From the NCBI GenBank assembly GCA_010094025.1, contig ML991805.1:248001-312000 (forward strand): a DNA stretch of 64,000 nucleotides. The letters are read 5' to 3'. The notes beneath the pieces were generated by a model. It ran no database searches. It was not told the DNA's origin and saw only the letters and a program-made list of their open reading frames with translations. The translations under genes and the position numbers were made by a program. The stretch comes from Viridothelium virens (Eukaryota > Ascomycota > Dothideomycetes > Trypetheliales > Trypetheliaceae). This document shows, piece by piece, positions 4,190-58,410 of the stretch (position 1 is the first letter of the stretch; every line of letters begins with the position of its first letter).

Positions 4190-4806
4190 AGATGGGATTA
4201 CGATGACTGATGCGAGCATTCTTTTTCCTAAAGCGGTCTTTGAATTGGGCGTTCCTGGCATAATACGGAGGGTCGAAAGGAAGCAAAATATACCCATGGA
4301 TCAGGTCAGGCGTATGAGATGTGAGAATATCTGGTGATACTCAGTTGCATTGATCTGAGATGTGATTTGGCTAAAGTGGGCCTGCTACAACATTATCATG
4401 CTGTCATTACATCTCGTTTAAATTAGTATCAAATCAAATACAGAAGGTGTCCATGTACAATCCTAGCATGCGGAGAGAGTACAATTTAAATCCAGTTCCG
4501 TTTCTGATGTATCTCTCTATTTGATCTCAACCCAAGTCTCTGAGACTGTCACCGTGTAACGAACCCAGTTATTTCTGGGTAGCCCGGGTATGCTTATATC
4601 AGGTCGGGCCCCCTAAAATTGTATCTCCCAGACGCGTGAAACAAGACAATCCTACTCCTCAAAGCTCGCTATCTTTGCTCAGCTTCCCTGAATTTTGTCT
4701 TCAAATCCATTGCTCCACGAGGTAATACATAGATCCCCTCGGAATACTTTCCCAATATCGCCATCGCCATTGCACTCCGCCTGAGCACCACCTCCCAATC
4801 ACCATT
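4190..4806. other. Convergent 3' intergenic region
   Basis: This is 617 bp between two converging genes. It holds only the 3' untranslated sequence of both neighbours. A 137-aa frame (3924-4337) is an overlap of the BTB second exon and looks non-coding. Confidence 0.5.
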
Positions 4807-5780
4807 TCACAGCCGCAGCCTATCATATACTTCCCTCAGCACCTCCCTCCTCGTCCTCTGCATCTCCACACTCCCGCCGCCCCTATCAAGAAAATCCAAC
4901 ATCCGCTCCACATTAAGCTTCGCCCTCTCAAACAACGGTCCCATCGGCCCCTCTTCTCCATCCTCCCCTCCTCCTCCTTCCCCACCCCCCACACCCGCCC
5001 CATCCTCACCCTTCCCTCCCCGCTCCTGCTGACCCGCCAAAATATTCGCCATCATCAGCGCCTCCTCAAACGCCCGATGCCCAAAAACCCACCAAACCTC
5101 GGCCTCGCGCTCAAAAAACCGCCACAGATTCCAAAACGCGGCAATCGCCTCGATGGCAGCCTCGAGGGCGCCACGCACGCTACACGCGACGCCCGCGCCG
5201 CGGTTCTCATCCGCCTGCAACACCATCAGGCAGTGGAAGTAGTTGCTCGTGAGGAACAGGTTCTGGCGGACGGAGCGCGGGTCGCGGGCGTGCAGCTGGG
5301 CGAGCGCCGCGCTGTCGAGCATGGTGAGCCGGGCGGGGAAGGAGCGGTGCAGCGTGCGGAAGGAGGAGAGCAGGGACGCTTTGTGGCGGGGGGAGGAGGA
5401 GAGCGGGAGCGAGAGTGAGAGCGGGCTGCAGATGGTTTCTTGCACGAGTAGCGCGAGGCGCCACATGCTGCGGATGTAGGCGATGTCGGAGCGCGAGCTG
5501 GAGGGTGGCAGCGTGTGGTGTGGGGCGGGGGGCTGTGCGGGGAGGCTGGAGGGGGAGAGGGGAGAGCGGTTGGGGCCCTGGGCGGGGGTGGCGCAGACGG
5601 CGCTGATGGACATTTGGTTGAGGGTGCGGGGGCTGGGGATGGAGAGGGGAGGAGCGGTGCTAGGGGAGGTGAGTGCGGATGGGGAGCCGTTGGAGGGATG
5701 GTGGGAGTTTGGGTCGGATTGGTCTTCGGAGAGGGCTTCGACGGAGACGTCCGAGTGGGTGGCGGTCGGAGGGAGCTTGA
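4780..5780. other. C-to-G skew island 1
   Basis: The plus strand is strongly C-rich from about 4780 to 5180 and G-rich from about 5230 to 5780. The island lies in the last exon of the minus-strand regulator and begins slightly beyond its stop codon. Confidence 0.7.
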
Positions 5781-7133
5781 AGAGGACGGTGAGAAAGGTG
5801 TCTTGGAACATGACCGCTTGCCACAGCTTTCGGCGTTGCTGCTTTTCTGTCGGACTTGCGTGCGGGACGATGGCATCGGGATCGCGGTTGAGTCCCATGG
5901 CATACGCTTGTCGAAGAAGAATTCCTGCGAAAGCCCAAGCGTCTGAGGCGTGGTTGTCATTCATGAGGAAGTAAGCGATGAGAACCATGGCCTGAATCGT
6001 TTGCATGGTTGTCCGATTCATGTAAGAGGATATACTTAGAGCTTGATGTGCGGCGGAAACTAGGTGATGGGCGTCAGGACAGGCCATAAAGTTGGTAGAG
6101 ATACAAACCATAGAACTCTGATGTCTGAGATCGCTCCTTGTACGAATTAAGCTGCACAAATTGAGTGCCCATTGCATACATGACAAAATGCAAGGCGAGC
6201 ATCGATGCATCAGCCTGATACCTTGCCGGAAGCGGCAGGGACCAGAAGCTCTCGTAATCGGCATAGAACGACTGTCGGTCCAGCATTGGGTAGACGGGGT
6301 CGACGCATGTAAAGTATCGTTCAGTCAGGATGTCGGCCTGATCTTTGCTGGGCAACACGCCCACCACCTCGGGCAGGCCACCTTGACATGTCCAATAGTT
6401 CGCGAACGGGTGCTCTGCGCCGATTCCAAAAACATTCGAAGGCGTTGATTTGACGTATGGAGCATTCGAGAGGAGGAAAGGAGATGATCCAGTTGAGGCA
6501 TGAGAGAAGCTTCGCCGTCGAAAGATTTTCGAGTCCTGTATGTGCTGGGACTTGGCTAAGTTAACTTTCTGCGCTTGGCCAGGCGTATATTCAATTCAAG
6601 GTTTAGACTCGGGCGAACAGATGAGATTTGATGTCATTATTCTGAGACAAACTGTATAAAAAATCCACGCTAACAAATCCATCCGCAATCAATCGAGAGT
6701 ATCCTGAAGGACTTACCGTTGGTGAGGTTGCAACTCCGCTTCCCACACTACCACCAGTCCTCACTCGCTTCGGAGGCCGATTGATGTAACGTGCATTCCC
6801 TATCACACCGTGGTCTGCGGATGCGATGAGGTTCGCGGCCTGTGAGTAATGACATTCGCTCTGGCGTTTGATGCATGCCAGGCATATCGGCCTGCCACGG
6901 TCGCACTAGTACAGTCATTTAGGTGGAGACGGATGGGGGGAGCGGGCGACAACGATGATTACCTTGGTTTTACGCTCCACGCACTGATTGCAGGACAGAG
7001 TAGGCTTGTTTCTCTTTTGCTTGGGTTTTCGCGGGACGACTTCCTGGATGCTTCTGGGGGTTGTGGGAGACCCGGTCAGGCCCGAGGGAGAGGTTTGGCC
7101 ACTGTCAACACCAGCGCTAGAGGCTGGCTGCAT
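4807..7133 (-). CDS. Zn(II)2Cys6 transcription factor
   Basis: Four exons (7133-6963, 6905-6717, 6535-6109, 6059-4807) give 679 residues with closed phases. The start is the ATG at 7133; the longer open frame upstream begins with a TTG. The zinc cluster uses Cys 48, 51, 58, 65, 68 and 75 in C-x2-C-x6-C-x6-C-x2-C-x6-C spacing. Intron 1 (6906-6962) falls exactly between residues 57 and 58, before the third cysteine. The middle region (PSKDQADILTERYFTCVDPVYPMLD onwards, broken here for length) is the start of a fungal-specific transcription-factor domain (PF04082 type). The C-terminus carries a Gly/Glu-rich run. It diverges from another zinc-cluster gene at 7805, so the two may be co-regulated. 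The target is unknown. Confidence 0.88.
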
Positions 7134-9630: not shown

Positions 9631-9705
9631 AAGGAATCTATTCGTTCGATAAACGGTACATTACAGGGTATTTGGCAACTTCTTCCATCACTAGCTTTTG
9701 CGCGA

Positions 9706-10859
9706 TCATTTTATATCCATCGCCCGCGTAACGCAACCGGGCTCGATCTTTTCCAACTTCTCGCAGAGCTGCTTCCACACTTTGTCTTGCAGCTCTTTCG
9801 ACCTCAGGTTTTCTGATCCGGCCAACCAGTCCCTGGCACGTGCCATTGGGTTAGCAGCCGCTCAAATGATGGGACTCCTATCAGTTGGGGATGTCAGATG
9901 ACTCACTCCTTTATCTCACAGTCTGTGAGAAATTTGCCATGGCCTTCTTCCCCTACAACTGCAGCATGAAGAAGTGTACGACTTCCCTGTTCTGCTGTGC
10001 GTGCCACAAGGAGCCGCATGATCTCGATTTGAAGCCACACCCAAAATGGGGAGTTACGATTGAGCTGCGTCTTACAGATACCTGGGCTGAGAGAATTGAT
10101 GATGACACCCGATTGAGGTAAAGGAAGGTCAGCAGCCATGGCACGGACACCAAGGAGCTCAATGAGCTTGGAGACAGGATACCTAGAGCCAGTGCAAGAT
10201 CAGTATCGGTATGAAGCTATGGACACCGTTCCAAAAAGCAAGGGAAGGCTCGAAGAGGCAGTGGCTAACCGATCTCGCATCGTCATCTCATTCTTCGTAT
10301 TCAATGCTTCAAACACATCCTCCTCCTTTCCCTCCGCAAACTGAGCCACAACACCTCTCCCACTTGACACGATTGTCATTCGTGGCACGATTCCCCACTT
10401 CGCCTTTTGCGCCCTCAATTTTGGTAACAACAGCATCGCCAACAAAAACGTCGAAATCACATTCACAGTGATCGTCGTTTCGTTCCCTTCGGCCTCCGTC
10501 CAAACGCCCATCGCCACGCCCGCATTCTGGACCACCGCATCGACCCTCTCGAGCTCTTCTACCCTCTTCGCAAATGCTCGCACCGAATCGTATGAAGTGA
10601 GGTCGAGCTGCCAGACTTCGGCGACCCCTTTGCGTCCCGTCGAGGCTTCGATGGACTTGACGGCAGCCTCGCCTTTGGAGAGGGAGCGGCTGGCAAGGAT
10701 GACGTGCGAGGCGCCGAGCCGGACGAAGTGACGGGCGCATTCGAGGCCGAGTCCAGTGTTGGCGCCTGTGACGATGTAGGTCTGGCCGCCGCAGTCTTGG
10801 GGGACGATGGGGAGATTTTCGAACTGGGCTTTGATGATCTGTCCGAGTGTCATAGGCAT
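9706..10859 (-). CDS. Short-chain dehydrogenase/reductase (retinol-dehydrogenase-like)
   Basis: Three exons (10859-10270, 10182-9907, 9832-9706) give 330 residues. It has the classical SDR parts: TGANTGLG cofactor motif near residue 30, QLDLTSYDSVR acidic strand, QNAGVA in place of NNAG, and YPVSK at 198-202 carrying the catalytic Tyr and Lys. The Tyr codon lies immediately after the first splice junction, which supports that junction. The last intron has a GCTAAC branch site. The sequence resembles the fungal WW-oxidoreductase/retinol-dehydrogenase-like subgroup that uses NADP(H); the substrate is unknown. It converges with the regulator at 9630 (75 bp between stops). Confidence 0.88.
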
Positions 10860-10860
10860 G
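10310..10860. other. C-to-G skew island 2
   Basis: The plus strand is C-rich at about 10310-10590 and G-rich at about 10600-10860, inside exon 1 of the minus-strand dehydrogenase. Confidence 0.55.
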
Positions 10861-11526
10861 GCTATGGCTTCGAAATGGAGCCTTTAGGGATCGGGCGCGG
10901 AAATCAAGATTTATGTAACTAAAAAGATGGAAGAATTTGATGTGAGGAAGGTTTAGCTTGGTGGAATGCGATTGAGCTGGCAACGCGAAGACACCTTGAC
11001 TGAGTTCATCGCAAAGAAATGTCGGATTTTATAAAGCTTAGATGGAGCTCTTAGCCCATTTCCGTGCCACCAGCTTGCAGGCTCCTATATTCCATAAGTA
11101 CCTATGAAATCATACGTAGCCATCAGGGATTTCAAAGTTGCACTGCCATAGCGGCACCCAATCTCAGACTGCTCGCAGAGTTTCTCCCGTTCGGGCCTAG
11201 TGCAATCTGGATTTGGGCATCTTCAACCTACTTTATGCAGAGGATGCAAGCGCAGACCTTCAACAAGGAGTATCGTGCAGACCAACCAGTCTGCAGAAGC
11301 TTGGCTATCGCCGTTAAATCCGTAACAGCCGAGACAGGGAATGAGGAGAGTTGGTGGTTGTTCGACAGCGTCACAGCGTCAGTAAGTCCTTTCCCACACC
11401 AGCCAACCAATAGAGGGACAATTTAAAGATTTCCCTTATTTCAAGTTGAGGAACGTTGCAACGATGATCACTGAAGGGATTTTCCGGAGATTCTTGATTG
11501 AAATGTGATTGCCCTGCCTTATTACT
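10860..11526. other. Intergenic region, dehydrogenase promoter and niiA 3' side
   Basis: This is 667 bp with no gene I can support. It must hold the dehydrogenase promoter and the niiA 3' end. Confidence 0.5.
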
Positions 11527-12490
11527 CTACCAGTCCATACCTACACTCCCTCTCTCGCCTCCCGCCAAAATCTCCATCGCCTTCCCATCCGCCCCTCTTC
11601 CCCCCTCGAGGTGACTAACCCCCACCCCCTTTCTCCCCTTCATCCTCGACCGCTCCAACCTTCGATCCAACTCCTTATACGGTGCCTCCGTCTCATCGGC
11701 CCTCACCCGCCACCGCTCCGTCCCCAGCAACGCATCCAGCTCCTCCACTGGCGGCAACTTCACATACACCCAGCCATCCTCCCTGTCCTCCGCCTCAAAC
11801 GTCGCAACACTAACCTCTGCATCATTTCCACACGCTCCCGGGTTCTTCCCGCCCAGCGCATAGTTGCGCTTATGCAACGGACACGACACCCAGAGCTTCC
11901 GCTCTTGCCCCCCCTCCTCCTTGCCCTCCTTTTCCCCTTCTCCCCTGCCCCCCTCACCATCAGCAGCAGAACCAGCCAAATCATCCCCAATCAGCCCATC
12001 GCTGAGCACAAACGCCCGCTTGTGCGGACACATCTGCTGCGTCGCGTAGTAGCGCCCGCGCACCAGGAACACCGCCAGCTGCGTGTCGCCGCGCTGCACC
12101 GCGACCGAGGCGCCCGTCGCGGCCGGCACGAGCTTCGACGCTGGCACCAGCGGCTGCCAGGTTAGCGAGGTCCAGCGGTGCGACTTGAAGTCGTAGGTGG
12201 CGCTTTCTTTGGGCCAGTAGGCGGGGCGGGTTTGGCCGCGTTCGGTGATGGGTTCGATGGTTTCGAGGGACGGGGGAGCAGGGGCTGGGGCGGAGATCGG
12301 GGGTGGGAGATTGTTCGTAGTGGTGGTGTCGCTCGGGGGTGGATTGCTGGAATCGATGGCTGCGGCGGGAGTGCCGCTGAATAGTTGGGCGGATGTTCGG
12401 GTGCTGTCGTTGTTCACGAAGGCTTCGAAGTTTTTGCGGCGTTCGGGGTTGCGGATGACTTCGGTCCACTCGCAGAAGTAGGAACCGACA
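11510..12490. other. C-to-G skew island 3
   Basis: The plus strand is C-rich from about 11515 to 11990 and G-rich from about 12060 to 12490, within the last exon of niiA (minus strand). The Gly/Glu-rich Rieske insert lies inside it. Confidence 0.65.
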
Positions 12491-15315
12491 AGGTCTTCCA
12501 TTTGCTTCTCGAGATCGGCACAGATGCCGAGTTTGTCTTCGAGAATGACCTCTCGCAGGTATTTGATTCCGCCTGGTAGATTTTCGATCCATCGAGCTGT
12601 CCGTTGTAATTTGTCTGCCGTTCGAACGTAGAAGCTAAGGTATCGATCGAGGATAGGGACGACATCGTCTGGCGGAACGTCCTTGGCCAGTAGTTCGCTA
12701 TGTCTTGGTTTTGCACCTCCATTGCCACCTACAAAGACGTTGAAGCCTTTCTCTGTGGCAATGAGGCCAAAGTCCTTGTTCTGAGCTTCGGCACATTCGC
12801 GTACACAGCCAGAAACGCCACCCTTGATCTTGTGCGGGCTTCGAATGCTCTTGTACCGCTCTTCAAGTCGAACAGCCATACCAACACTATCGCCGATACC
12901 AAATCGGCACCAAGTCGTACCAACACAAGATTTGACCGTCCGCAAAGATTTGGCATATGCGTGACCTGATTCCATGCCACCGTCGATAAGCTCGGTCCAG
13001 ATGGCAAGAAGATCTTGTTTTCTGACACCAAACATGTCTATCCGTTGACCGCCAGTAATCTTGGTATAGAGACCGTATTTTTTGGCAACCGTACCTATAA
13101 TGATGAGTTTCTCTGGAGTAATCTCACCTCCGGCAACTCTTGGAATAACAGAAAAGGTGCCATTTCTTTGGATGTTGGCCAGGAACTTATCATTCGTGTC
13201 TTGAAGACCCCTTCGCGATGTATCAGTGATGTGCTTATTGAATAGACTTGCGATGATGGATCCGATCGTTGGCTTGCACGCTTCGCAGCCAACCGAGTTG
13301 GCGTCCTTGCCACATTCTTTCATGATATCTTCAAAGCTTTGGAGCTTCTTGACATAGATGATGTTGAAGAGATCGGCGCGAGAATATTCAAAATGCGGAC
13401 AGAGATGATTCTTGACCTCTTGCCCCATCGACGCCATGGTTTTGTTGAAGATGGTCTGCACAAGAGGCATGCAGCCACCACACCCGGTTCCAGCTTTTGT
13501 GCAAGACTTGACGTCTCCGATTGATTTGCAGGTGCCATCCTTGATAGATTTGGTAAGATCACGCTTCAGTACATTATGGCAAGAGCATATTTGCGTATCA
13601 TCGGTACTGCTGAAGTTAGTTCTACGCTGATATAGCTTTTTCGCGATGATGAACCTACAGATCATCTGCGCTATCGTCGTCGCCTTTGCTCGCACCAATG
13701 ATGAATTCACCCGGAGGCACATCGAGCGCTTTCTGATTTTTGACCATTGGAACAAGCTTCACATAGTCTTTCGTATCTCCGATCATCATCCCGCCAAGCA
13801 AGTACTTCCCGTCCATGGTAAACAAGTATTTCTTGTAAACCTGCTGGAATGGGTCCTTGTACGTCAAAGCCTTGACGGGAGGGGGAGCTGGACCCTCTGT
13901 CAGATTTCTGACCCGATCCTTCGCCTCTATCGTGCCTTCTTTGGTACCACCATGTCGCCTGGCAGGCAGCTCTTTCGGTCCATCTCGATCAGCAAAGAAA
14001 TCTCCAAAGCTTGCGACTTCAACGCCCAACAGTTTTAGCTTTGTACTAAGGTCTGGCCGCTTGAACTTTCTTGGTGCATGCACTTTCGCTTGAGTTAGAT
14101 TGAATGCCAACACGTCCGCCATTTCGACTCCTGGAGCGATCAAGCCAAATGTCTGGCTCTCCCAACTTGCACACTCCCCGATTGCGTAGATATCCTGTAT
14201 CGAGGTCGAGAGATCCGTGTTGACAATGATTCCGCCGCCTCTATCCGCGCATTTTATGCCGGCCCTCCGCGCGAGCTCGTCGCGCGCTTTGATGCCGATC
14301 TAAAGATGTCAACAACCGCACCCATCGTTTGGAATATCCCCAACTAACCGCAAAACAAATACATGCACAGTCCATCCTCTCCCCATCCTCAAATTGCACT
14401 CCCTTCACGCCACCCTCCTCATCAACTTCAATCCTGCCTACCCTCTTACTCAACAACACCTCCAAACCCAACTTCCTCACCTGCTCCACCACCATCCCTC
14501 CAGCATCTCCATCGAGCTGCCGACTCAACACCCATCGGTTTCGCTCGATCAGCTTTACCTTATTGAACTCCTCCAAGTCCATCATCGCCTTCGCAGCCTC
14601 AAGCCCCAGCAGCCCACCGCCAACGACTGCACCTGCAGCCCCCTTTTTCGTCGCAGAGAATTCAATGAGCTTCTGCAAGTCTTCGATGGTGCGATAGACA
14701 AACACACCCTTCGCATTGTGGCCAGGTGTGTGTCGAGGTAGGACCGCATCGGAACCTGTGGCGAGGACGAGGATATCATAAGGGACGGTGGTACCAGAGG
14801 AAGTGGTGACGGATTTGGTGGTTGGATCGATGGAGGTGACGAGAGTATTGAGGTGATAGTTCAGGGAGCCCAGAGGCATTGATGAGTACTATAGTGAGGG
14901 CGCGTAAGTGATGATCCTAGATTGTGGGGCTGTGAATGGTCAAGGCATCTCTTACCCATTCTTGGGGGTTCAGGTACAGATTCTCAACTTTTCGGTGTTG
15001 GAAGAAGCTTGTGAGACCGACACGGTTATATGCAAGATGGGGCTCCTCTCCGATGACAATGATGTCGTATTCGCGTCGCTTTACGTCCAATTTCATGAGC
15101 TTTTCTCTGTGCGAATTCGTCAGCTTAGGATAGGTGGAAATCGATGTCTTCAGCCGGGGGTCACCTTACATGAAAGCTATGCCAACCATGCCCAGCCCAA
15201 CCACCACGATCCGCTTTCTCTGGGTGTTCTTTGGTATCTCATCTTTTTCCTCAAGCTGTTGCACTTTCTCTGGTAGCTTATTCGCTTCCGGGTCGTTCCA
15301 TTCACTGTTACTCAT
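11527..15315 (-). CDS. niiA: Nitrite reductase [NAD(P)H], assimilatory
   Basis: Five exons (15315-15170, 15106-14956, 14888-14349, 14299-13659, 13606-11527) give 1185 residues, the usual length of fungal NiiA. The N-terminal third is a pyridine-nucleotide-disulphide oxidoreductase ([31 protein letters not shown]). A BFD-type [2Fe-2S] domain follows with CSC at about 500-502 and CGGC at about 535-538. The siroheme/[4Fe-4S] ligands are Cys 720, 726, 760 and 764 (CVGTTWC and CVREC). The C-terminus is a Rieske-like domain with CPH at 1019-1021 and CPLH at 1068-1071, separated by a Gly/Glu-rich insert. The enzyme reduces nitrite to ammonium in the cytosol with FAD, siroheme and NAD(P)H. It lies directly downstream of niaD in the same orientation. 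GATA and NirA-type sites upstream suggest AreA/NirA control. Confidence 0.96.
14340..14860. other. C-to-G skew island 4
   Basis: The plus strand is C-rich at about 14340-14640 and G-rich at about 14740-14860, in exon 3 of niiA. It is weaker than the other islands. Confidence 0.45.
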
Positions 15316-15651
15316 GCCTGCTATAGTAGGGCAAACTCTTCCTCGGTGTCCTTTCTATAGAGATCAAGCCCTTGAGTAGTCTGCTCGTCACATATGTAAA
15401 AGGTTCCTGGAAAGCAATGAATGAGCTGATGAGGGGAAAATCACGGGATACAGGTGCACGTTGTGGGATAATAGGTTCGAAAACCATTTGCATTCAAGGA
15501 AAAGCTAGAACATGAGCTAAACCTAGGGATTGAGTTACACAAACCGTTATTCACGCCATTTCCCCATATCATCCCCCGGAAAAGCGCATGCAATGGATGA
15601 GCTCAGTCATGTTATGACCAAACATCTCAGGCACGCCTGCGCCACCTGCAA

Positions 15652-15659
15652 CTCCGCGG
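15652..15659 (+). promoter_or_regulatory. Candidate NirA box upstream of niiA
   Basis: CTCCGCGG matches the Aspergillus NirA consensus CTCCGHGG and lies about 340 bp upstream of the niiA ATG. The match is seen in the sequence; binding is inferred from family knowledge. Confidence 0.55.
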
Positions 15660-15701
15660 ATACCTTACGAGATCCAGGATCGGAAAGTTCCAGACGTTCC
15701 T

Positions 15702-15731
15702 CACTGCCGGTAGACCCACTGCCGGTAGATC
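15702..15731 (+). repeat. 15-bp tandem duplication in the niiA promoter
   Basis: The unit CACTGCCGGTAGAYC occurs twice head to tail (15702-15716 and 15717-15731) with one mismatch. It sits between the NirA-type box and the GATA cluster. Confidence 0.85.
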
Positions 15732-15742
15732 CACGGCCATGC

Positions 15743-15801
15743 TGATAACAACAGGGGGGAAAGATAAGGATGCAGGACATGGAAGTCGCGGGAGGTTATC
15801 A
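15743..15801. promoter_or_regulatory. Cluster of three HGATAR sites upstream of niiA
   Basis: TGATAA at 15743-15748, AGATAA at 15762-15767 and TTATCA (TGATAA on the minus strand) at 15796-15801 lie within 60 bp. Clustered HGATAR sites are the binding pattern of the GATA factor AreA/Nit2, which relieves nitrogen repression of nitrate genes. Confidence 0.55.
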
Positions 15802-16167
15802 CTTTACCTTACTAAGCTATGTAGTCCCGGTGGCTTGGGCGTAGGAACTTTTCTCCGCGCCGACACGTGGCCGACAGGGCTAATCCTCTTCGAGAGGCAG
15901 CATACAAACATGAATGTTTTTCGATCTTCATTCCTTCTCCATGTATGCCAAGACGTCAAGACAGTACCTAGAATGCCAAATGGGAGTCAGCAACCAATGG
16001 CATCCTACGAGATGAAACACAAACAAGCTATGCCAGTTCCAATTTGTAGTCGTGACAAAATCATCACTCAAACAACTTGACTCGGAAAACTCCGTAGTTC
16101 ACGTACCCCTTTCCCTCTCGAGTATCTTGAATATCCAGAATGAAATTGAGAAAAATGATAGAGCCCA

Positions 16168-18974
16168 TCAGAACTTGTGCACATCCGCGTCAGCCCAGCC
16201 CAATTCCTTCAACCCCGTCATGGCCGACTTCTCCATCGACTCTGGCCCACAAATCAAAGCCATACTCCCAGCCCTCCACTTCGCATGCTCCTCCAACAAC
16301 GGCTTCGCAATCCTCCCCCTGAGCCCCATCCAATCCTCCGGCGCCTTCGTCAACGTATGCAAAACCCTACACCTCCCCTCCCCTTTCCTCTCAAACTCAT
16401 CCAAATCCTCCCTACACAGAATATCCTCCACCGCACGATTCCCATCCAAAACCACACACTCCACCTCCGCCTCCACCTCCTCCTCGCGCATCACCGCCCT
16501 CAGCACCTGATAAATCGGCGTGATCCCACTCCCACCACACACCATGACGAACCTGCGCACCCTCCTCTCCACCCCATTAATCGCACACCGCCCCGCTCCC
16601 AAGTACTCGAACCTCCCCGTCGGCCCCTTGACCTCGACGACCTGCCCCACCGCCAGCGCCTCCAGCGCCAACGACATCCGCCCCCCCGCCCGCTCCGCCG
16701 TGTCGAAGTACACCTTCACCAGCACGTCGACGAAGCCCCGCTGATCCGTCGCGCTGATCGGCGTGTACGCGCGGATGATGGCGTCGCGTGAGGCCGGGTC
16801 GGCGAGCTTGAGGAGCAGGTGCTGCCCGATGGGGAGGCCGAGCCGTTGCGTGGAGTGCTCGAGTGCGAAGCGCAGGATGCGCGTGTCGCGCGAGATGCTG
16901 CGTTTGGAGTGGAGCGTGGCGCGGGTCCAGGCTTTCGGGGTGAGGAAGGTGGGGCGGGGGGAGGTTGGGGGAGTGCTGGTGCTGGTGGAGTCGGAGGAGA
17001 GGGCGGAGAGGGCGGAGGGGGTGAGTGTGCCGATGTGGTAGGTGGGCATCATGTTTTTCGCGTTTTCGCTGTCTGGGAAAGGAGGAGGTTTGTCAGTGTG
17101 GGTGGAGGGTAGGTGGGGGTTGGTGGGAAAGGAGGAACTTACGGATGGCCATGAACTCTTCGGTGCTGTCTACGCCGGCAGCAGAGATGATACTTTGCGC
17201 ACCACCAGGGTGTTCATTCAGGAATGATGTGCCATCATAGACCTCACCATTTAAAACGAACCATGGGCTCTCTCCGAACTCATGTTGTTTAAGCTCTTCT
17301 AGAGTGATCTGTCTGTTGAGTCCAGCTTTCGTCATTCTCACCTCTGCTGCCTGTGGTTCGACCGAGACAGTGGCGTCCTCTCCACCAAGCCTCTCACCCC
17401 AGTATCCATTGGTCAGATTTCCGCCGGCCTTCTTTACCCTTTCCATCCATCCTCCGGGAATCAAGGCGGGCTGTGTCGGGTGCTCGAACTTTAGGCTACG
17501 ACCTTCGTTATGTATAACTATCCGGTACCAAGGGTTATTCATCATCCCCAGGACTGACCAGTACAAATCTCGAGGCTGAATATTCATACTCTCGTCCATC
17601 GCTCGAACGAAGATGTCTTGAGCATTCCGCAGCTCATCCGTCGATATTACGATATTCCAGAAACACCAACAGAAACAGCTTTCTCTCCATGACATATCAA
17701 GCAGTCCGCCACATAATGCTTGTGGACTGGCTTCTCGATATCGATCTTCGAGGTATTCGACGTTCGCCAATCTCCATGAATGTCCTTTGTCTAGCGAGAT
17801 TTCGACTCTCGTCACTCTTCGACCACCACCCCCGTAGGCGTAACCTCGCACGTCATAATTGCTTTCGGCTGCTGGAAGGCTCAACTGCTCGTCATGTGCT
17901 GGGAATGCTATCGCAGAATTGGTACTGAGGTCGTAAATTGCGTAACGCTCGTCTCTCCACCACTCCGGAGTCTGCTGCGACTCTTCTGGCGATACAGAGG
18001 TACTAAAGATGGCTTAGCGAGATCTTTGCACATTGGTGGGGTCGATCTGCACATACGGAAGCACGCGATTATCGTAGATGTGGTACCAGTTGTCGCTTGG
18101 AGAATCAGTCAGAATAATCCTCTTCAGCCACTTCACGCTCCGTCCTCCGATTTGGCCAGGGATGACTACCCGAAGCGGTTTCCCGTGGTCGGGTCTTAGC
18201 ATTTCCCCGTTCATCTTGTGAGCCAACATCATTCCCCGGTTTGGATCCATTACCCAATTGAGCTTTACTGATGTTCCGTAATACCCATTCGGCTTGATTT
18301 GTTAGCTAGAAGCGACAGTAAAAGACAAATTCAACTAAACTGACCAATTTATCTGCACCTTCCATGCACACGTATCTCGCTTTTCTCAGCGGTTTGGCCC
18401 TCTTCAGGACTTGCGACATCACGACACCCGTGAATATCGCAGTGGAGACGCCGGCTGCTCCCCAAGAAAACCCCTTGGTCTTCCGAACAACATTTTGCTC
18501 TTTCCGTCGGTTTCCGGCGCATACAAAGGTGACGGGATACGTAACTTGTTCATGCTGCTCTAGAAGATCTCTCAATGTAAGAGTTAGTGGATTCTCGACC
18601 AGCCCTTCTACTGCGAATTCCCAGTCCAGAATGTCTCCATCCTCTACGCGTGGGACGGCTCCATGATTTCTTACATAGAACAGTTCGGGGCTCGTCAGAA
18701 ATCCTTCATTGTAAAGATCTGAAAGGGGCGCCTCAACATTGAAAGGATGCTTTCCAGTCAATCTTATTAAGCGAGGATCTCTTGGTAACCAGCCATCCGG
18801 AGTACCCTTGTCGTCTTTCAAAATTTCAGCTGGAATGAATGATGGAGGAGGAAGAGGAAGTGCTGCGGGTTCTAGTAGTGTAGAATCTCCTGCGTCGGTT
18901 TCGGGTGGAGTTGGAGGGAAATCCCCACTGACCCTTCGCAAATGAAGCTTTTCCTCTTGGGTAGGAACACCCAT
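16168..18974 (-). CDS. niaD: Nitrate reductase [NAD(P)H], assimilatory
   Basis: Four exons (18974-18345, 18292-18057, 18002-17143, 17072-16168) encode 876 residues, typical for fungal nitrate reductase; all phases close. Domain order is a molybdopterin domain with the Mo-ligand Cys at about 152 (TFVCAGNRR), a dimerisation domain (MNIQPRDLYWSVLGMMNNPW), a cytochrome b5 domain with the heme motif HPGG at about 553, an FAD domain with RAYTP at about 676, and a C-terminal NAD(P)H domain with CGPESM near 854. It reduces nitrate to nitrite in the cytosol. It is tandem with niiA, with 852 bp between them, unlike the divergent pair of Aspergillus. The start ATG at 18974 was chosen because the longer frame begins with TTG. 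No nitrate transporter is in the window. Confidence 0.97.
16180..17140. other. C-to-G skew island 5
   Basis: In bases 16261-16320 I count 30 C and 6 G; in 16921-16980, 7 C and 36 G. The switch is at about 16740-16790. The island covers the last niaD exon and runs on through the preceding intron (17073-17142), which is G-rich on the plus strand. Confidence 0.85.
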
Positions 18975-42687: not shown

Positions 42688-43213
42688 TTTGGAGAATGGG
42701 GTAGTGCGAGCACGAGCTTGTCAATGAAGCCTGCGGCCAAGATATTGAGAACTAGTCTGCCCGCATTTATATCAGGATAGAGGATAGGTTGTAACGATTG
42801 CTAGCAAGAACTTAGGGACCTCGGACGATGACGCGGAGGTTTCTGTCGATCCCCTTGTTTCGACCGGGGTAAATTCTCTTCAAAAGGGGATCCATGTATG
42901 CTAAAGTGTATATCAATCCATGGAGAGGCAAGTGAGGGGCTTTGGTGAGTATTTTGATTCATGTCATCTGAAGCCTGCTTTGGGCAATTTCAAGAAGCGA
43001 AGAGGTGCTCTACGATATACTGTTCGTTCGACCGGGATCTTCTGATACCACCATTTTGTATTGGAATACCACGAAGCACTGAGGCCTTTCAAAAATCCAT
43101 CGAATATTTTGTTTTAGAGGATTCCTTGACATCTCAACTCAGTCATTTCATGCAACTCGAATTCTCAACATTACTCCTGAAAAATACCGTTCAATCCTTT
43201 GCATCTCTCCAAT
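42688..43213. other. Bidirectional promoter, lactonase-like / lyase
   Basis: This 526-bp region separates divergent cluster genes. It carries TTCGACCGGG twice (42859-42868 and 43027-43036). No other gene is seen. Confidence 0.6.
42859..43036 (+). promoter_or_regulatory. Two copies of TTCGACCGGG in the cluster promoter
   Basis: The same 10-mer occurs in the same orientation at 42859-42868 and 43027-43036, 168 bp apart. It contains CCGG, of the kind zinc-cluster proteins can bind. The role is inferred only. Confidence 0.35.
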
Positions 43214-44209
43214 ATGGCATCCGCTAGCCATTTCCCCCGGCAAACCGCTGCCTCAAAACTCAGGACCATGCTCCAAGACCAATCCAAAATCATCGTCGCC
43301 CCCGGAGTCTACGACGGCATATCTGCACGCATCGCCCTCTCTCTCGGTTACGAAGCCCTCTACATGGTAAGCCATACACCCTCCCTCCTCTCTCCACGCC
43401 CTCTCTCCACACCCCCAACTCACTCCACTCCCCCCCCCACCCCACAGACCGGCGCCGGGACCTCACTCTCCCGCCTCGGCTGGGCCGACCTCGGCCTCAC
43501 CACCGCCACCGAAATGACCACCCAAGCCGACACGCTCGCCAACCTCTCCCCCTCCACCCCCCTCATCGCCGACGCCGACACCGGCTACGGCGGGCCGATC
43601 GCCGTCGCACGCACCGTATCGGCGTACGCACGCGCCGGCGTCGCAGCGCTGCACCTCGAAGACCAGGTGCAGGAGAAGCGGTGCGGCCACCTGGGCGGCA
43701 AGCAGGTGGTGGCGCGCGAGACGTTCTGGGCGCGGATCCGAGCGGCGGCGAACGCGCGCGAGGAGCTGGGGTCGGAGATTCTGATCGTGGCGCGGACGGA
43801 TGCGCGGCAGGGGCTGGGGTTTGAGGAGGCGGTGACGCGGTTGCGGGGCGCGGTGGAGGTCGGCGCGGATGTGGTGTTTCCGGAGGCGATGGCGTCGAGG
43901 GAGGAGGCGGCGGAGATGGTGCGCAGGATGGGGGAGACGCCGTGTTTGTTGAATTTGGTGGAGGGGGGTGTGACGCCGGAGGTGACGGTGGAGGAGGCGA
44001 GGGAGATGGGGTTTCGGATTGTGATTTTTCCGGTGACGGCTTTTGAGGGGGCGATTGTGGGGATTCGGGATGTGTTGAGGAAGTTGAAGAGGGAGGGGAA
44101 GATGCCGGCGACGGGGGTAGGTGTGAAAGATGCTTTTGATCTCTGTGGGCTTCAGGAGTGCGTTGAGCTAGATAAGAAAGCGGGCGGGAAGGCGTATTCC
44201 AATGTATAA
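43214..44209 (+). CDS. Isocitrate lyase / PEP mutase superfamily lyase
   Basis: Two exons (43214-43366, 43448-44209) encode 304 residues. DADTGYGG at 93-100 holds the Mg-binding acids, and KRCGHLGGK at 128-136 carries the active-site cysteine typical of C-C lyases (isocitrate, 2-methylisocitrate and dimethylmalate lyases, oxaloacetate hydrolase) rather than true PEP mutases. Length matches the short methylisocitrate-lyase/dimethylmalate-lyase type. The reaction class is probably cleavage of a 2-hydroxy acid to pyruvate or oxalate plus a second acid; the substrate is not known. The stop lies 44 bp from that of the MmgE/PrpD gene on the other strand. Composition shifts sharply within exon 2 (skew island 8). 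Confidence 0.92.
   Translation: MASASHFPRQTAASKLRTMLQDQSKIIVAPGVYDGISARIALSLGYEALYMVSHTPSLLSPRPLSTPPTHSTPPPTPQTGAGTSLSRLGWADLGLTTATEMTTQADTLANLSPSTPLIADADTGYGGPIAVARTVSAYARAGVAALHLEDQVQEKRCGHLGGKQVVARETFWARIRAAANAREELGSEILIVARTDARQGLGFEEAVTRLRGAVEVGADVVFPEAMASREEAAEMVRRMGETPCLLNLVEGGVTPEVTVEEAREMGFRIVIFPVTAFEGAIVGIRDVLRKLKREGKMPATGVGVKDAFDLCGLQECVELDKKAGGKAYSNV
43370..44110. other. C-to-G skew island 8
   Basis: In bases 43501-43560 I count 34 C and 7 G; in 43921-43980, 8 C and 30 G. The switch is at about 43640. The intron before it (43367-43447) is also almost G-free. The gene is on the plus strand, so codon ends change from C to G along one exon. Confidence 0.88.
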
Positions 44210-44253
44210 AGTGTCCGCAATTGATGGCCTACTATTTGTAGTGGAAATTCGGC

Positions 44254-50008: not shown

Positions 50009-50710
50009 CTCAGGTAGAGTGAGGCTGAAGGACTCAGAATGCGTACGTAGATATAGTAGTGGAGGTGGTAAAATATCGAAACGAATGACGTAAAAAGGAA
50101 ATTCTTCCTAAAATATTGGATTTTTTCCGCTCACGAACAATGGAAGCTATGTCGCTGCTGTCACGATTTGACCGCGGTATGAGTTATAAGCATATTGTAC
50201 ACTGGATCACTGAGCTGAGCATCAGTCCTTAAACTTTGAACCCGTCCTCCTGAATCGACTTTTATGGTACACCCCTCCCCTAAAAAGGCTACAAGAAGTA
50301 GAAGGCCCTATCATAGAGTCATGAAGCGAATTGGTGCAGACGTAAGCTCATAAAAGACACGCACTGAATAATAATCGGGAATTTGGCCGTGACAAGGGAA
50401 TTACAGTAAGAGACGGAGCAAAGAGGACTCGGAGAAGGCCCAAGGAAAGAAGAGAGACAGAGAGTAAAAAGCACACTTTTCCTGTGCAAGCAGGCTCGAA
50501 GCAAACACGAACGGGTATCTCCTCGAAAAAAAATCATGGAACAAAAAGCCACCAAGACATCAACAAGATCATAAAAAATCCGACGAAATTAATGCCGATC
50601 CAGCATCGCAGCACAAAAATTCCCTTTCCGTCCCAACCTGCTTCAACCCTCCACCCTCCTCAGCCAGAAACCCTAGCACAACCCTGACCCAGCCCAGCCA
50701 CCTCCCCCCC
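50009..50710. other. Convergent 3' intergenic region
   Basis: This is 702 bp between two converging genes. The last 80 bp are C-rich and belong to skew island 9. Nothing else is recognised. Confidence 0.5.
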
Positions 50711-51440
50711 TCACGAAACCACCTGCGTCGGCACCCTCGGCAACGGCACCTCCGGCGGCGGCGCCCTCGGCGGCGGCAGCCCGATCCCAGAGTCACGCTG
50801 CAGATATGGCATGCTCCTCCTGGAGGCCAACCCCAACCCTGATGCCAGACCCTGTCCCTGCTGCCGTCCCTGCGCCTGAAGTCCCTGCTGCCCGGCAGGC
50901 GTGATGCGCACACGAAACCGCGCCGCGCCGCCGCTCTCGCTGAAATAGCGCGCCCCAGTGCTGCGAGGGGGCGGCGCGAGAATGCTGCTGGCGCTGCTGG
51001 CGCGGTTGGTGGCGGCGAGCTCGGAGAAGGAGCGGGCGCCGGCGAGGTGGGGTTTTGCGAGAGCGCTGTTGTTGTTGCTATTATTGATTTTGGCGGCGTC
51101 GTTGAGGGAGACGGGTGCGCCGAGGCTGGAGGTGCGCGGGTTATAGGGGGGTGGTGCTTGGGTCTGTGATTGTTGCTGTGGCTGGTCGGATGGGGAGGCG
51201 GAGGATGAGGTGGGAGATTCGGAGACGGAAGTGCGGGTGGAGCGGACGGTGGAGAGGAAGGGGGCTGGGTTTGCGCGGACTTGGACGCTGGTGGGCCGCT
51301 TGAGGGAGGTGGGTTCGGGTTGCTTGGGGGCGGATGCCAGGGGTCGAGCAGTGACGCCGGGGGCCACCATGAGTGGAGGGGAATGCGTGGGCGTGGCTGA
51401 ATTGAGAAATGTCGAGCGCGAGGCTGGTCCCACTGGTTTT
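50630..51440. other. C-to-G skew island 9
   Basis: C-rich from about 50630 to 50900, G-rich from about 50940 to 51440. It begins about 80 bp beyond the stop codon of the PH-domain gene (minus strand). Confidence 0.7.
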
Positions 51441-53563
51441 GAAGATGTGGATGTGTCGAGAGCTGGAAGGCTTGGACGGATGGGCAAACGCATGGGAACT
51501 GCGGAGTTGCGACGGGGCTGCTTTGGTTCGGAGGCGCGCCGTGAAGACTCCTGGTTCAAAGCGCTGACGCAGTGGAGCGGCCGGATTAGTGAAGGCTTGG
51601 GGGTGGTTTGCTCAGAGCTATCCATCTCGGGCAACTCAGGCACTTCCGGAGTTGTGGAAGACCTCTTTAGTTTCGGTGATGATCTAACAGGTCGAACAGT
51701 TCGATTGGCGTCTGTGGGTGAGACGTCTCCTTGGCGGAAGTTCAATACTGCAGACTCAGGAACAGCCTTTGGCTGGGTATTAGGGAGTGAGGATTGCCTG
51801 AGCCGAGTAGGACTCCCTGTGAGCACACTCGAGGAGAGTTCAACCGGGAGAGCATTGGAATAAGGTCTCATTGAAACCCGTTTTCCGCGTGGCGCGGAAT
51901 CCTTAGGAAAGACTGAATACTCGTCCGTTCTGGGTAGAGTTTGCATAGATCGCCGCCAGCTACTTGACGACATTGTTGGGCTTGTATGCGTTCCTTTACT
52001 AGCGATAGGACTACGACGTGACTCCTGCTCCATATGCTTCGGCAAGTGTGAGTCTTGTGATTCAGGTGACGATGCTCGTGAGGTGGTGAATGTATTCGTT
52101 GACATGTTCGACTCCCTCGATGAATTTCGGAGCTGATTTAACTGCTGCTCGCCGCTTGAGAGAAAGGTCGCAGTGGATGCTCGATCCGACGGCGGCCTTT
52201 GCATAGAATGGCGTAGAGATTTCGAGGCGCTATCCACGGTACTAGGCTGTATTACCTCTGCATCCAGTCCCCTGGTCTCCGCCTCAGTCTCATTTTTGTC
52301 CCATTCCGAGGTAAGAATCACCGGTGATGATGGAGTATCCGGGATAGGGGACATCATGGTCGTCATCTTCGGACGAACTGTGGTTTGAAGGCTTTGATTC
52401 TCATAGAAGTCATGCTCAGTCAATGACTCCTCTACTGTCTGGGCAGGGTGAGCATCTGGCCTGCCTTTCTTTCCTCCTATTATGTCAATTTCGTTTCTGA
52501 TTGCCATCATCCAAGAATTCAAGTCTTCTGCGCTTTCCATCACCAAAAGCATGTTTCCTGTTGTTTTCCGGGAGGCGCCTCCCTGTATTTTGAATCTGCT
52601 GAGTAACGATCTTGACTTTGTTGGAACTCCGCTTCCCTCAGATTTGGTATTCTGAGATACTTGTAGCACCCAATGGCGTCCGGGGATTGCATCAGAAGCG
52701 AATGCAGCCGAGTCCTTTTCAAGTTGCAGTACTTTTTCAGGTTCCCTTTCCGGGGTACCGTTCCCAGGGTATTGGAGCAAGAGGCCCGAGGGAAGTAAAA
52801 GGAAGAATTTGCGTGTCCAACCCGAAGATGCTAGAGATTGAGATGAGAAACGCCGACTGCTTTTATCACTGGATAGTCTGGAATATGCTGCCTCAGCGTC
52901 TTCCGCGGTTAAATCAATCTTACTGTCCCTGAAATTCTGTATAAGACTACTCCGCTTGCTATTTTGAGCACGGAGTATCGAATCGGCGGAATAGTTCAGC
53001 GCAGGAAGAGATGCGTGTTTGATGGAGTTTGGAAACGCTTGAAACAATGGCGGAAACTCTGGTGAAGAGGGTTGCCTAGCCAGGTTTGACCGAGATTCCC
53101 GATGCGATAAAGCTCGACGAGAGCTTTCTCTCGGCGGAACCTGTTGTACTTGGCGGGGTGGCCCTATTAATGTAGAGATTGCTTTTGGCGGCACAGGCAT
53201 GTCGATGAATTGCGGAGATGTGTATTTTGGTGGCATCTTATGCTGAGTTTCCGAAACAGGGTGAATGTTAGTCGCTGGCATTCCTCCTTCCGTGTATCCT
53301 CGTGATCTCTCAACCTTTGGTCTGCTAAAGAGATTGAAGAGCGACATTTTGGATTGTCGTCGGTCCATCTTTGGGGTTGGAGCGGGCGCAGGCGCTGATG
53401 GTCGCGGTTGACGAGGTGTTTGATCGACTAGAGGATTTCCTGACCGAGAAACATTTCCTTTAGATGAGGGAGTTGAGGAGGAGAAGGAGGTTCGTATCGG
53501 TGGCAAGTCTCTGGGACTTCGTCGGCCGAAGCTTGATATGTAGACGTCTTTGTCTCGAGCCAT
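50711..53563 (-). CDS. PH domain-containing protein
   Basis: This is one uninterrupted frame of 950 residues from the ATG at 53563; the frame above it begins with TTG. After a disordered, Pro/Ser-rich 200 residues there is a divergent PH domain (SGWTRKFFLLLPSGLLLQYP; HWVLQVSQNT; SAEDLNSWMMAIRNEIDIIG, the last being the C-terminal helix with its Trp). The remaining 550 residues are Ser/Thr/Pro-rich and probably disordered and phosphorylated. Fungal PH proteins of this layout are mostly uncharacterised and probably bind phosphoinositides at membranes. The C-terminus includes Gln/Gly runs that coincide with skew island 9. Confidence 0.85.
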   Translation of the reverse strand: MARDKDVYISSFGRRSPRDLPPIRTSFSSSTPSSKGNVSRSGNPLVDQTPRQPRPSAPAPAPTPKMDRRQSKMSLFNLFSRPKVERSRGYTEGGMPATNIHPVSETQHKMPPKYTSPQFIDMPVPPKAISTLIGPPRQVQQVPPRESSRRALSHRESRSNLARQPSSPEFPPLFQAFPNSIKHASLPALNYSADSILRAQNSKRSSLIQNFRDSKIDLTAEDAEAAYSRLSSDKSSRRFSSQSLASSGWTRKFFLLLPSGLLLQYPGNGTPEREPEKVLQLEKDSAAFASDAIPGRHWVLQVSQNTKSEGSGVPTKSRSLLSRFKIQGGASRKTTGNMLLVMESAEDLNSWMMAIRNEIDIIGGKKGRPDAHPAQTVEESLTEHDFYENQSLQTTVRPKMTTMMSPIPDTPSSPVILTSEWDKNETEAETRGLDAEVIQPSTVDSASKSLRHSMQRPPSDRASTATFLSSGEQQLNQLRNSSRESNMSTNTFTTSRASSPESQDSHLPKHMEQESRRSPIASKGTHTSPTMSSSSWRRSMQTLPRTDEYSVFPKDSAPRGKRVSMRPYSNALPVELSSSVLTGSPTRLRQSSLPNTQPKAVPESAVLNFRQGDVSPTDANRTVRPVRSSPKLKRSSTTPEVPELPEMDSSEQTTPKPSLIRPLHCVSALNQESSRRASEPKQPRRNSAVPMRLPIRPSLPALDTSTSSKPVGPASRSTFLNSATPTHSPPLMVAPGVTARPLASAPKQPEPTSLKRPTSVQVRANPAPFLSTVRSTRTSVSESPTSSSASPSDQPQQQSQTQAPPPYNPRTSSLGAPVSLNDAAKINNSNNNSALAKPHLAGARSFSELAATNRASSASSILAPPPRSTGARYFSESGGAARFRVRITPAGQQGLQAQGRQQGQGLASGLGLASRRSMPYLQRDSGIGLPPPRAPPPEVPLPRVPTQVVS

Positions 53564-56572: not shown

Positions 56573-57578
56573 ATGGCCTCTGACCAGTTGGATGCTACGG
56601 ACGACAATGTAGACAGACGACGGGCTGTGAGGACACTACCTCGTATGTGCTACTCGCAAAAAGACGTTCGCATTGACTATCGCTCACCTACCTCCTCTAG
56701 CATACGTACGCACATTCGATGAAGAAGACGCGCGCTGGCTCCAGCACCAAACGACTCCCAATGTCCCCCTCACCACCGCCCAAGCTCCTCGAGCCAATGC
56801 CCCCCGCGGCCGGCGATTCGACCACCTGCGAGAGCGCGAGCCTGTCATCATCACCCAGCCCATGCAGGCCTCCGCGCCCATGTGGCGCTCCTTCATGAGA
56901 GCCACCGCGCTGCCCGCTACAGAGCCGGGAGAGCGGGTGAGCCAGCAGTGGCTGCGACAACACATGCCGGACATGGATGGGCTTTGGACGCGACAATCGC
57001 CGGAGGAAGAGAAGGTGAAGAACGTGCCCCTGTTAAAGCGGATGGAGCGATGGCCGGCGGTCATCCGGCATACGGTGTTGCGGAACCCGTTCATCCCGCT
57101 TATTTTTCGAATCATCGTTCTGACGTGCTCGGTTACGGCATTGGGTCTGGGTGTGACTATATACAACCTTATTCGATCCGGTCCTTGCTCCTGGCGCTCC
57201 ACTAGCTCACTGATGGCCATCATCGTTGATAGTCCGGCGGTGCCCTACCTCCTCTACGTGACGTGGGACGAGTACACCTCGAAACCGCTTGGTTTGCGGA
57301 AACCTGCTGCCAAGATACGACTGATTTTCTTAGATTTGTACTTTATCATCTTCGATGCCTCGAATTTGACCTTAGCGTTCTTGTCTTTGACGGATAACCG
57401 TGAGGCTTGTTTACCTACCGACAGCGGTCCGAACCCATTGGCTTGTGTTAGTGATAGGGATATATGTGCACGAAAGAAGGCGCTGTCTGGGGTTCTGCTT
57501 GTAGCACTTGTGGCGTGGGTCCTCACATTCAGCGTTTCCGTATTTCGGGTTATCGAAAGAGTCAGCGGTAGACAGTGA
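56573..57578 (+). CDS. SRF1: SRF1-like membrane protein (regulator of phospholipase D)
   Basis: Two exons (56573-56642, 56701-57578) encode 315 residues. The N-terminus is cytosolic and basic, with RTLPPYVRTFDEEDARWLQH joined across the intron. Four membrane segments follow: IPLIFRIIVLTCSVTALGLG, SLMAIIVDSPAVPYLLYV, LIFLDLYFIIFDASNLTLAF and LSGVLLVALVAWVLTFSVSV. The WDEYTSKPLGLRKP loop and the RKKAL stretch before the last helix fit fungal Srf1. In yeast Srf1 regulates Spo14 phospholipase D. The assignment rests on my recognition of the pattern, not on a search. Confidence 0.68.
56740..57080. other. C-to-G skew island 10
   Basis: In bases 56761-56820 I count 30 C and 13 G; the G-rich half runs from about 56930 to 57080. 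Weaker and shorter than the others; it lies in a plus-strand gene. Confidence 0.4.
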
Positions 57579-57709
57579 CGTTGACAAGTATGATTACCTG
57601 TATGAGACACTCAGTTTTCTCAATGTCTTCATACCCGAATATGCTCATCAGTAATATCCCTATATACATGATACGTTCTACGTCATGACTCAACGTTTAC
57701 TCATTTACC

Positions 57710-58410
57710 CACCCATCTCTCGTCCCATGCTCTACTTATACAACAACTCATAAACCATCTCTCCAATCGCCAAACTACTCGTCAACCCGGGACTCTCAAT
57801 CCCCATCAAATTCACCCACCCCTCCCATCCTTCCTCCCGCTTAATCCAAAAATCCCGAAACCCCGCCCCGCCCGCCACCGCGCTCGCCCTCCCCAACTTC
57901 GGCCGTATCCCCGCGTAATCCAGCTGGATCGCGGTCTCGTCGACACCGGGCAGGTAGCTCTTGATCTCGGCGACTGCCTCTGCAAACTTCTCGGGGCTCA
58001 TGCTGGGAGAGTACGAAGTCGGCGAGTCGACCCACTCGACGTCCGGCCCGAATCGGATCCGCCCGGCGATGTCGAGCGTGAGATGTGTGCCCAGCCCGCC
58101 GTGGCCTGGGCGTGGGGCGGGGTAGACGAGAGTGCGAGGGCGGGGACGCGAGGGAGAGTAGGAGAAGTAGTTGCCCTTGGCGTAGGAGGGGTTGATGTGC
58201 GCTGAAGGGGGCTGGATCATGTTGTTGATGTGGGTAGCGTAGAGGCCGGCGGAGTTGATGAGCGTTTCGGCGGTGATGGGCTCCGAGCCTTCCGGGGAGG
58301 AAGAGGGTTGGTCGGGAGAGGTGGTCCAGATTTTCCAGCCGCTCCGGCCGCGGTCGATGGGTTCGATGTGGGAGACGGTGGAGTGGAAGGCGCAGTCGCC
58401 GCCGAGATCT
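57710..58410. other. C-to-G skew island 11
   Basis: C-rich from about 57710 to 57930, G-rich from about 57960 to 58410, in a minus-strand gene and starting just beyond its stop codon. Confidence 0.7.

Follow-up and report, generated by a model that had tools for sequence, protein, structure and literature searches.

Mirror-symmetric islands of C-to-G strand skew within genes of the fungus Viridothelium virens

The genome of the ascomycete Viridothelium virens (Dothideomycetes, Trypetheliales) contains short islands, tied to genes, in which one DNA strand is C-rich on the left and G-rich on the right. They were studied in a window of 64 kb, namely positions 248,001 to 312,000 of contig ML991805.1 (GenBank assembly GCA_010094025.1), and in samples from elsewhere in the genome, which comprises 30.7 Mb in 175 contigs. 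The window is part of contig C35, and its positions are counted from its first letter. The feature is real and strong, it is present across the sampled parts of the genome, and its symmetry is unusual: the strand that runs outward from the centre of an island gains G and loses C, while total GC peaks at the centre.

The original prediction had described eleven such islands in the window (islands 1 to 11), with the same order of arms in plus- and minus-strand genes. Base counts confirmed both statements, as the left half had a negative skew and the right half a positive skew in all eleven cases. The contrast of an island was defined as the largest left-to-right skew difference over 250+250 bp, and the null distribution as the maximum over the whole 64 kb in each of 300 triplet shuffles (95% point 0.140, 99% point 0.156, maximum 0.162). 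The contrasts of the eleven islands range from 0.154 to 0.332 and all exceed the shuffled 95% point. For the weakest island at 56740-57080 (0.154) the distance is narrow, and its value lies below both the 99% point and the maximum of the null. A stricter segmentation recovered eight of the eleven islands as pairs of a C-rich and a G-rich arm (C>G pairs) and a ninth by one arm (14338-14643); the islands at 10310-10860 and 56740-57080 were not called.

This segmentation, which distinguishes the three states background, C-rich and G-rich, was also applied to 25 stretches of 10 kb. They comprise positions 100001-110000 of contigs C1-C20, C22, C25, C28, C31 and C34 and were picked by position, not by content. 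Together with the window, the analyzed sequence amounts to 314 kb, or about 1% of the genome. In this sequence C>G pairs were called 22 times and G>C pairs never, besides five single arms, and 14 of the 22 pairs lie in the 25 stretches outside the window. With looser segmentation penalties, 24 to 27 C>G pairs were found versus one G>C pair. The median island width is 943 bp, and the median lengths of the arms are 460 and 410 bp.

A contrast scan (width W = 250, skew difference D at least 0.2) gave 22 C>G and 9 G>C steps; if both flanks had to be skewed by more than 0.2, the numbers were 21 versus 2. One of these two strong G>C steps (L008:6554) adjoins an island and the other (L009:6201) is a free-standing candidate. 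Within the window, every G>C step of at least 0.15 is located at the edge of an island. The original prediction, which saw no island of the opposite order, holds for the strict segmentation, and the contrast scan adds one candidate to the contrary. No C>G excess was seen in a low-contrast scan of 264 kb (W = 300, D at least 0.12), which gave 51 C>G and 60 G>C steps, many of the latter at island shoulders. Outside of islands the two orders are roughly equally frequent at thresholds of 0.12 (45 versus 56), 0.16 (14 versus 8) and 0.20 (4 versus 2). We read the islands as a discrete class rather than as the tail of a genome-wide slope.

The density is eight islands per 64 kb in the window versus 14 per 250 kb elsewhere, i.e. 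about one per 8-18 kb, and the islands may cluster regionally. Arms without a called partner were observed at L009:6810-7317, L011:4983-5265, L017:1669-2278 and L020:8186-8619; they may be half-islands, islands with a missed partner or something else. A G-free run followed by a C-free run was considered as a genome-wide test and dropped, as it does not discriminate.

Base composition was profiled around 25 centres, which are the 22 segmented ones plus three further ones of the window, and is given for the strand that points away from the centre. At four-fold degenerate sites 200-300 bp from the centre, the fractions of A, C, G and T are 0.118, 0.096, 0.672 and 0.114; at 0-50 bp, they are 0.093, 0.252, 0.567 and 0.087. 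Beyond 1400 bp the composition of these sites is nearly even. Their GC content is 82-85% within 100 bp of the centre versus 51% far away. For two-fold sites at the same distance of 200-300 bp, the ratio is 0.88 for G/(A+G) and 0.28 for C/(C+T), compared to a value of 0.54 for both ratios far away. The outward strand thus ranks G over A and T over C; furthermore, T exceeds A at 300-500 bp. The skew of third codon positions has vanished by 650-900 bp from the centre.

In coding terms, the 5' and the 3' side of the centre are mirror-alike: at four-fold sites 100-400 bp out (approximately 947 and 1324 sites), a chi-square test, computed from rounded fractions, gave p = 0.20. The strengths of the C-arm and the G-arm are correlated in 99 genes with r = +0.395. 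In 200 shuffles, the mean was -0.63, owing to the manner in which the step is chosen, and none reached the observed value. The two arms thus share a cause. Neither codon choice nor one-way transcription predicts mirror symmetry or coupled arms. We regard symmetry and coupling as the main evidence for one two-sided process, and the original prediction of such a process around a centre is supported by both.

Third codon positions are about twice as skewed as positions 1 and 2. If centres were set by third positions alone (20 of 99 genes), positions 1 and 2 shifted in the same way. For example, at position 2 the C fraction falls across the centre from 0.385 to 0.240 and the G fraction rises from 0.159 to 0.253. 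The force therefore reaches amino acids. A strict G-quadruplex (G4) motif occurs in 18 of 44 arms, as expected from their G-richness.

The location of the islands was related to genes predicted by a small home-made, splice-aware Viterbi model. The model was seeded with long frames and with nine Pfam-matching frames of the window; its starts and introns may err in detail. Of the 22 centres, 21 lie in exons, which make up 53% of the sequence. In complete genes of at least 1300 bp, 11 of 12 centres are found in the 3' half, and in 18 complete host genes the centre is 183 to 945 bp away from the stop codon. These counts omit island 4, which is a single arm in the strict call and has its switch in the 5' half of its gene, 3123 bp from the stop codon. 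In long genes, the C arm is located about 0.8-1 kb from the stop and far from the start. The original prediction had called the islands independent of gene strand. This carries little weight, since a C-left/G-right pattern reads the same on either strand. The islands are in fact tied to genes, as is evident from their exonic centres, from the 3' preference in longer genes and from the drop of the signal 100-150 bp outside of the coding region.

Introns and flanks take part in the skew. Pooled introns have a skew of +0.59 at 100-200 bp (144 bases) and of +0.33 at 300-400 bp (274 bases) from the centre, and a predicted intron of island 5 (17073-17142) contains 36 G and 4 C. At 200-300 bp from the centre, flanking DNA has a skew of +0.60 on one side and of +0.59 on the other, and the C arm of island 6 extends approximately 100 bp beyond the stop codon. 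It had been argued that islands passing through introns and past stop codons are not explained by transcription. The passage through introns is borne out; since the islands are bound to genes, it does not suffice, even together with the stop codons, to dismiss a cause linked to transcription.

The skew extends to genes beyond those with strong islands. A significant C>G step at third positions was detected in 41 of 122 genes, and a G>C step in 15, of which 13 also have a significant C>G step. In 83 genes without strong islands, third-position skew is about -0.2 in mid gene and +0.2 in the last tenth, which is the same polarity in a weaker form. The number of introns shows no difference between island genes and other genes (p = 0.57). 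Conversion by cDNA from transcript ends was rejected in view of this result and of the predicted introns inside islands. A scan of viral contigs found no related locus.

With a probability of roughly 40%, we interpret an island as the footprint of a long-lived, gene-anchored site at whose centre a two-sided process starts, most likely recombinational double-strand break repair; recombination was one of the two options of the original prediction and is a possible cause. We infer that the centre is the break site, that the bias is one of conversion rather than mutation, and that it arises at a mismatch-repair step. In the proposed scheme, breaks would form around the centre, 5' ends would be resected and the 3'-ended strands would pair with the homologue, such that the process reaches about 0.4-0.6 kb in either direction. 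Mismatch repair would then remove the 3'-ended strand of the broken chromatid on each side, and the outward-running strand with the donor information would be kept. If G-T and G-G mismatches are repaired efficiently and C-C mismatches poorly, conversion would act on an outward G more frequently than on an outward C, and it would do so symmetrically on the two sides. In the course of many generations, G would accumulate on the outward strand and C would be lost from it. At the centre, breaks could occur on either side of a given base, both strands would gain and GC would peak at the point of zero skew; this peak would be accounted for by breaks that scatter over some 100-200 bp. A rise of central four-fold GC such as the one observed is what biased conversion would lead one to expect. 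The gene-bound edge could arise if pairing between divergent haplotypes requires a certain similarity. In its specific form, strand-asymmetric biased gene conversion, in which mismatch repair is directed to the 3'-ended strand, is weak on C-C and strong on G-T, would drive outward G at stable intragenic break sites and, averaged over genes, could constitute the C-5'/G-3' skew of fungal genes. This form is proposed tentatively.

Published data on yeast are in line with a part of this scheme, as repair of C/C mismatches was three to five times less efficient at two loci and that of G/T mismatches was the best, according to the section of the study drawn on here (PMC3218862). Similarly, strand choice in break-linked mismatch repair is described as potentially strong (60-80%) and set by the geometry of the break (PMC9001825, in the part considered). 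Equilibrium fits to four-fold and two-fold sites were compared by means of their deviance. Symmetric GC-biased gene conversion (gBGC) is excluded as sole cause (deviance 1472), a one-strand AT-to-G bias fails (315 or 275), and so does a preference of G over all other bases in the joint fit (81). A model with the terms GG versus CC, GT versus AC and GA versus CT plus a GC term fits with a deviance of 0.9 or 0.5 on one degree of freedom, and all four terms are positive as expected. We consider this fit as consistency, not as proof. The genome further has a match to TP6A_N (Spo11/TopVI family) of 54.4 bits, which is over the cut-off, and two matches to the MAT alpha-box.

Several observations weigh against this interpretation. 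Each of the two alpha-box matches (C147:13784-14185 and C69:116082-116324) contains one in-frame stop in an intron-ignoring search; the two are candidate mating-type genes that may not be intact, and they do not demonstrate present-day sex. The four-term fit is flexible, as it has four parameters for five degrees of freedom, and its GG versus CC term, the one best backed by published data, is poorly fixed at 0.81 or 0.10, depending on the assumed transition rate. For four-fold sites alone, a preference of G over all plus mutation bias, fitted with yeast-like mutation rates, does equally well (deviance 0.1). Composition alone cannot separate mutation from biased conversion, and the proposed link between centres and breaks is conjectural. 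A search for a motif at the centres gave no convincing candidate; the best 6-mer had p = 1.5e-4 among 115 tested, and the words were GC-rich. Some introns near centres run contrary, such as the one at 10183-10269, which lies on the C side and has 18 C and 26 G. Irrespective of the distance to the centre, the signal is lost 100-150 bp beyond the gene, and the distance to the gene border outweighs that to the centre (LR 48 versus 9), which argues against a purely centre-driven picture. Under recombination, such a gene-bound edge is expected only if homology fails there, e.g. between very divergent haplotypes. The scheme offers no explanation for the 3' preference, and breaks towards the 3' ends of genes are not known to be the pattern of yeast. 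The relevant part of the yeast study gives no ranking of GA versus CT repair (PMC3218862), and in a mouse single-strand-annealing assay the type of mismatch had little influence on strand choice, as far as that section of the report goes (PMC9001825), which speaks against a repair hierarchy. In Zymoseptoria (Stukenbrock & Dutheil 2017; PMC5844332), hotspots resemble the islands in being intragenic, with 1435 of 2578 Z. tritici hotspots exonic. However, gBGC was extremely weak or absent in the two species, and the portion of that text consulted mentions no skew islands.

The strongest rival, and a serious one, is a transcription-linked bias of mutation or repair, which we nevertheless regard as rather unlikely. 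Sense transcription would make the 5' side of the coding strand C-rich, the G-richness of the 3' side would come from another phase of transcription or from antisense transcripts of the gene end, and the islands would be strong cases of the skew at fungal gene ends. This fits the same polarity of the average non-island gene, the end of the signal shortly outside of genes and the location of centres in 3' halves. There is also a non-significant lean of island genes to convergent downstream neighbours (14 of 19 versus 37 of 73, p = 0.12), and C-biased 5' and G-biased 3' ends are described for most fungi studied in the sections used of PMC3315797. However, since the arms are mirror-alike and co-vary, sense and antisense effects would have to be equal. 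Moreover, the C arm of long genes is far from the start, one gene has two islands, of which the strict segmentation recovers one by a single arm, and a GC content above 80% is not given by strand bias alone, following an argument in the part of PMC3845650 referred to here. Mutagenic DNA synthesis during break repair, in which an error-prone polymerase or a G-rich nucleotide pool makes the outward new strand G-rich by mutation and not by conversion, is improbable. It accounts for the four-fold sites by a uniform G preference plus mutation bias, and it has a parallel in the strand-asymmetric substitutions that flank human meiotic breaks (Hinch et al. 2023; PMC7615360, in the parts drawn on). As in the islands, this human asymmetry flanks a centre, and the same parts report none within 100 bp of it. 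Mutagenic synthesis does not explain why C/(C+T) decreases to 0.28 where only C or T is allowed, which is reflected in the joint-fit deviance of 81. In addition, the human case concerns rare new mutations over flanks of 2 kb, as opposed to accumulated composition here, and its polarity is apparently reversed: by our reading of the text and legends, the C>N and A>N mutations affect the forward strand, the one that is single-stranded to the left of the break, so that G would accumulate on the left. If this reading is right, it would speak against a mutational version of the human kind.

Replication origins and transcript folding rank below transcription. Selection on transcripts or codons, be it for base pairing between the C-rich and the G-rich half or for a codon ramp, is highly improbable. 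The halves can indeed pair and the signal is bound to genes, and in two of 12 folded islands the stability exceeds that of local shuffles (z = -2.5 and -3.4). However, the mean z over these 12 of the 22 islands is -0.41, and one of them has a value of +2.9. In addition, the skew is present in pooled introns and in about 100 bp of flanking DNA, and codon positions 1 and 2 shift as well. The most improbable of the readings considered is a local start of replication, which the original prediction had named as one option. In this case leading strands would run outward and become G- and T-rich as at bacterial origins, and the polarity of the islands is indeed that of a leading strand, since on the outward strand G exceeds C and, at 300-500 bp, T exceeds A. 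Differences between leading and lagging strands should, however, extend for kilobases, whereas the arms measure 0.4-0.5 kb and third-position skew is gone by 650-900 bp. Moreover, the density is about one island per 8-18 kb and nearly all centres are exonic. The strong GC rise is a further objection, as differences between leading and lagging strands should not alter GC content (PMC3845650, in the part referred to above).

Several known systems share features with the islands. Replication origins and the skew switches of CpG islands (R-loops) have the same C-left to G-right switch with a G-rich outward strand. Skew at origins is of kilobase scale and lacks a GC rise, and skew at CpG islands is found at promoters, not in the 3' part of exons; the islands described here differ from origin skew by ending within 650-900 bp and by their GC rise. 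With hotspots of gBGC they share a local, hotspot-sized GC peak at silent sites (0.51 to 0.82-0.85). In gBGC, G and C rise equally on both strands, whereas here they are split by side (G 0.67 and C 0.10 at 200-300 bp). The closest likeness is to the skew of fungal genes reported by McLean & Tirosh (2011; PMC3315797). In the sections drawn on, the coding strand is C-biased upstream and G-biased towards the stop codon and past it at degenerate sites, filamentous fungi are included, and two hypotheses are offered. Likewise, the coding strand here is C-biased 5' and G-biased 3' in genes with and without islands, and the islands are gene-tied and reach about 100 bp into the flanks. In contrast, those sections describe a whole-gene average trend that is similar at degenerate and non-degenerate sites, and no GC peak; here, there are discrete, mirror-symmetric islands of about 0.9 kb that are strongest at silent sites and have a central four-fold GC content above 80%. 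The islands are a sharper, partly different form of the known fungal skew. Among the matches listed in the literature on skew at recombination sites or in fungal genes, no such islands are reported. The term itself is used in other senses: in the parts considered, a paper on gerbils denotes the rise of GC as GC skew (PMC7403616), and one on honeybees applies skew to allele frequencies (PMC4406589).

In the window, the bounds of islands 1, 3, 5 to 9 and 11 were taken from the segmentation. Island 1 (4735-5800, switch at about 5228) lies in the 3' part of a minus-strand gene for a Fungal_trans transcription factor (PF04082; model 4807-7133). The weaker island 2 (10310-10860, switch at about 10569, contrast 0.186) belongs to a minus-strand short-chain dehydrogenase gene (PF00106; model 9706-10859). 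Islands 3 (11512-12457, switch at about 12159) and 4 (14338-14860, switch at about 14646) occupy the 3' part and the 5' half, respectively, of a minus-strand nitrite-reductase-like gene with NIR_SIR, Fer2_BFD and Rieske domains (model 11527-15315); of island 4, which has a contrast of 0.276, the strict segmentation contains only the C arm. Island 5 (16180-17135, switch at about 16760) is found in the 3' part of a minus-strand nitrate-reductase-like gene (PF00970/PF00175; model 16168-18974), whose best solved relative is a nitrate reductase. The two reductase-like genes adjoin on the minus strand (11527-18974), carry three islands between them and are probably a nitrate assimilation cluster. 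Island 6 (23513-24191, switch at about 23900) lies in a minus-strand V-SNARE gene (PF12352; model 23616-24581). Two islands span plus-strand genes, namely island 7 (33935-34788, switch at about 34207) a short-chain dehydrogenase gene (PF00106; model 33985-34806) and island 8 (43187-44194, switch at about 43658) a PEP-mutase family gene (PF13714; model 43268-44209). Island 9 (50622-51606, switch at about 50957) is at the 3' end of a long minus-strand model without a Pfam match (50711-53281). The weakest one, island 10 (56740-57080, switch at about 56920), lies in a plus-strand model whose main frame has no Pfam match (56573-57654), and island 11 (57708-58392, switch at about 57993) in a minus-strand gene for an FAD-dependent oxidoreductase (PF01266; model 57732-58754).

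The Pfam content of the window includes a fungal transcription factor, nitrate and nitrite reductase domains, V-SNARE and End3; together with the short introns and the gene density, it points to a filamentous fungus. Of 20 frames tested, ten matched a family; eight overlapping alternative frames of islands and the frames of islands 9 and 10 did not. Long open frames of 209-264 amino acids run opposite to Pfam-supported island genes at 4726-5418, 11509-12165, 16162-16791 and 23347-24141 on the plus strand and at 33853-34569 and 43463-44167 on the minus strand. None of these six frames has a Pfam match, and they could be mistakenly annotated as genes.

Should the centres prove to be break sites, one genome sequence would suffice to locate recombination hotspots and to tell in which direction heteroduplex is repaired, and neither crosses nor population data would be needed. 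If strand-directed repair at such breaks is the cause, the fungal gene skew that has been a puzzle since 2011 would be given a mechanism, and a strand polarity, which the symmetric model lacks, would be added to biased gene conversion. If transcription is the cause, there would still be a force that locally alters the amino-acid composition in a considerable fraction of genes, namely the 41 of 122 with a significant step. Either way, the islands can distort methods that deal with codon usage, substitution rates and gene prediction.

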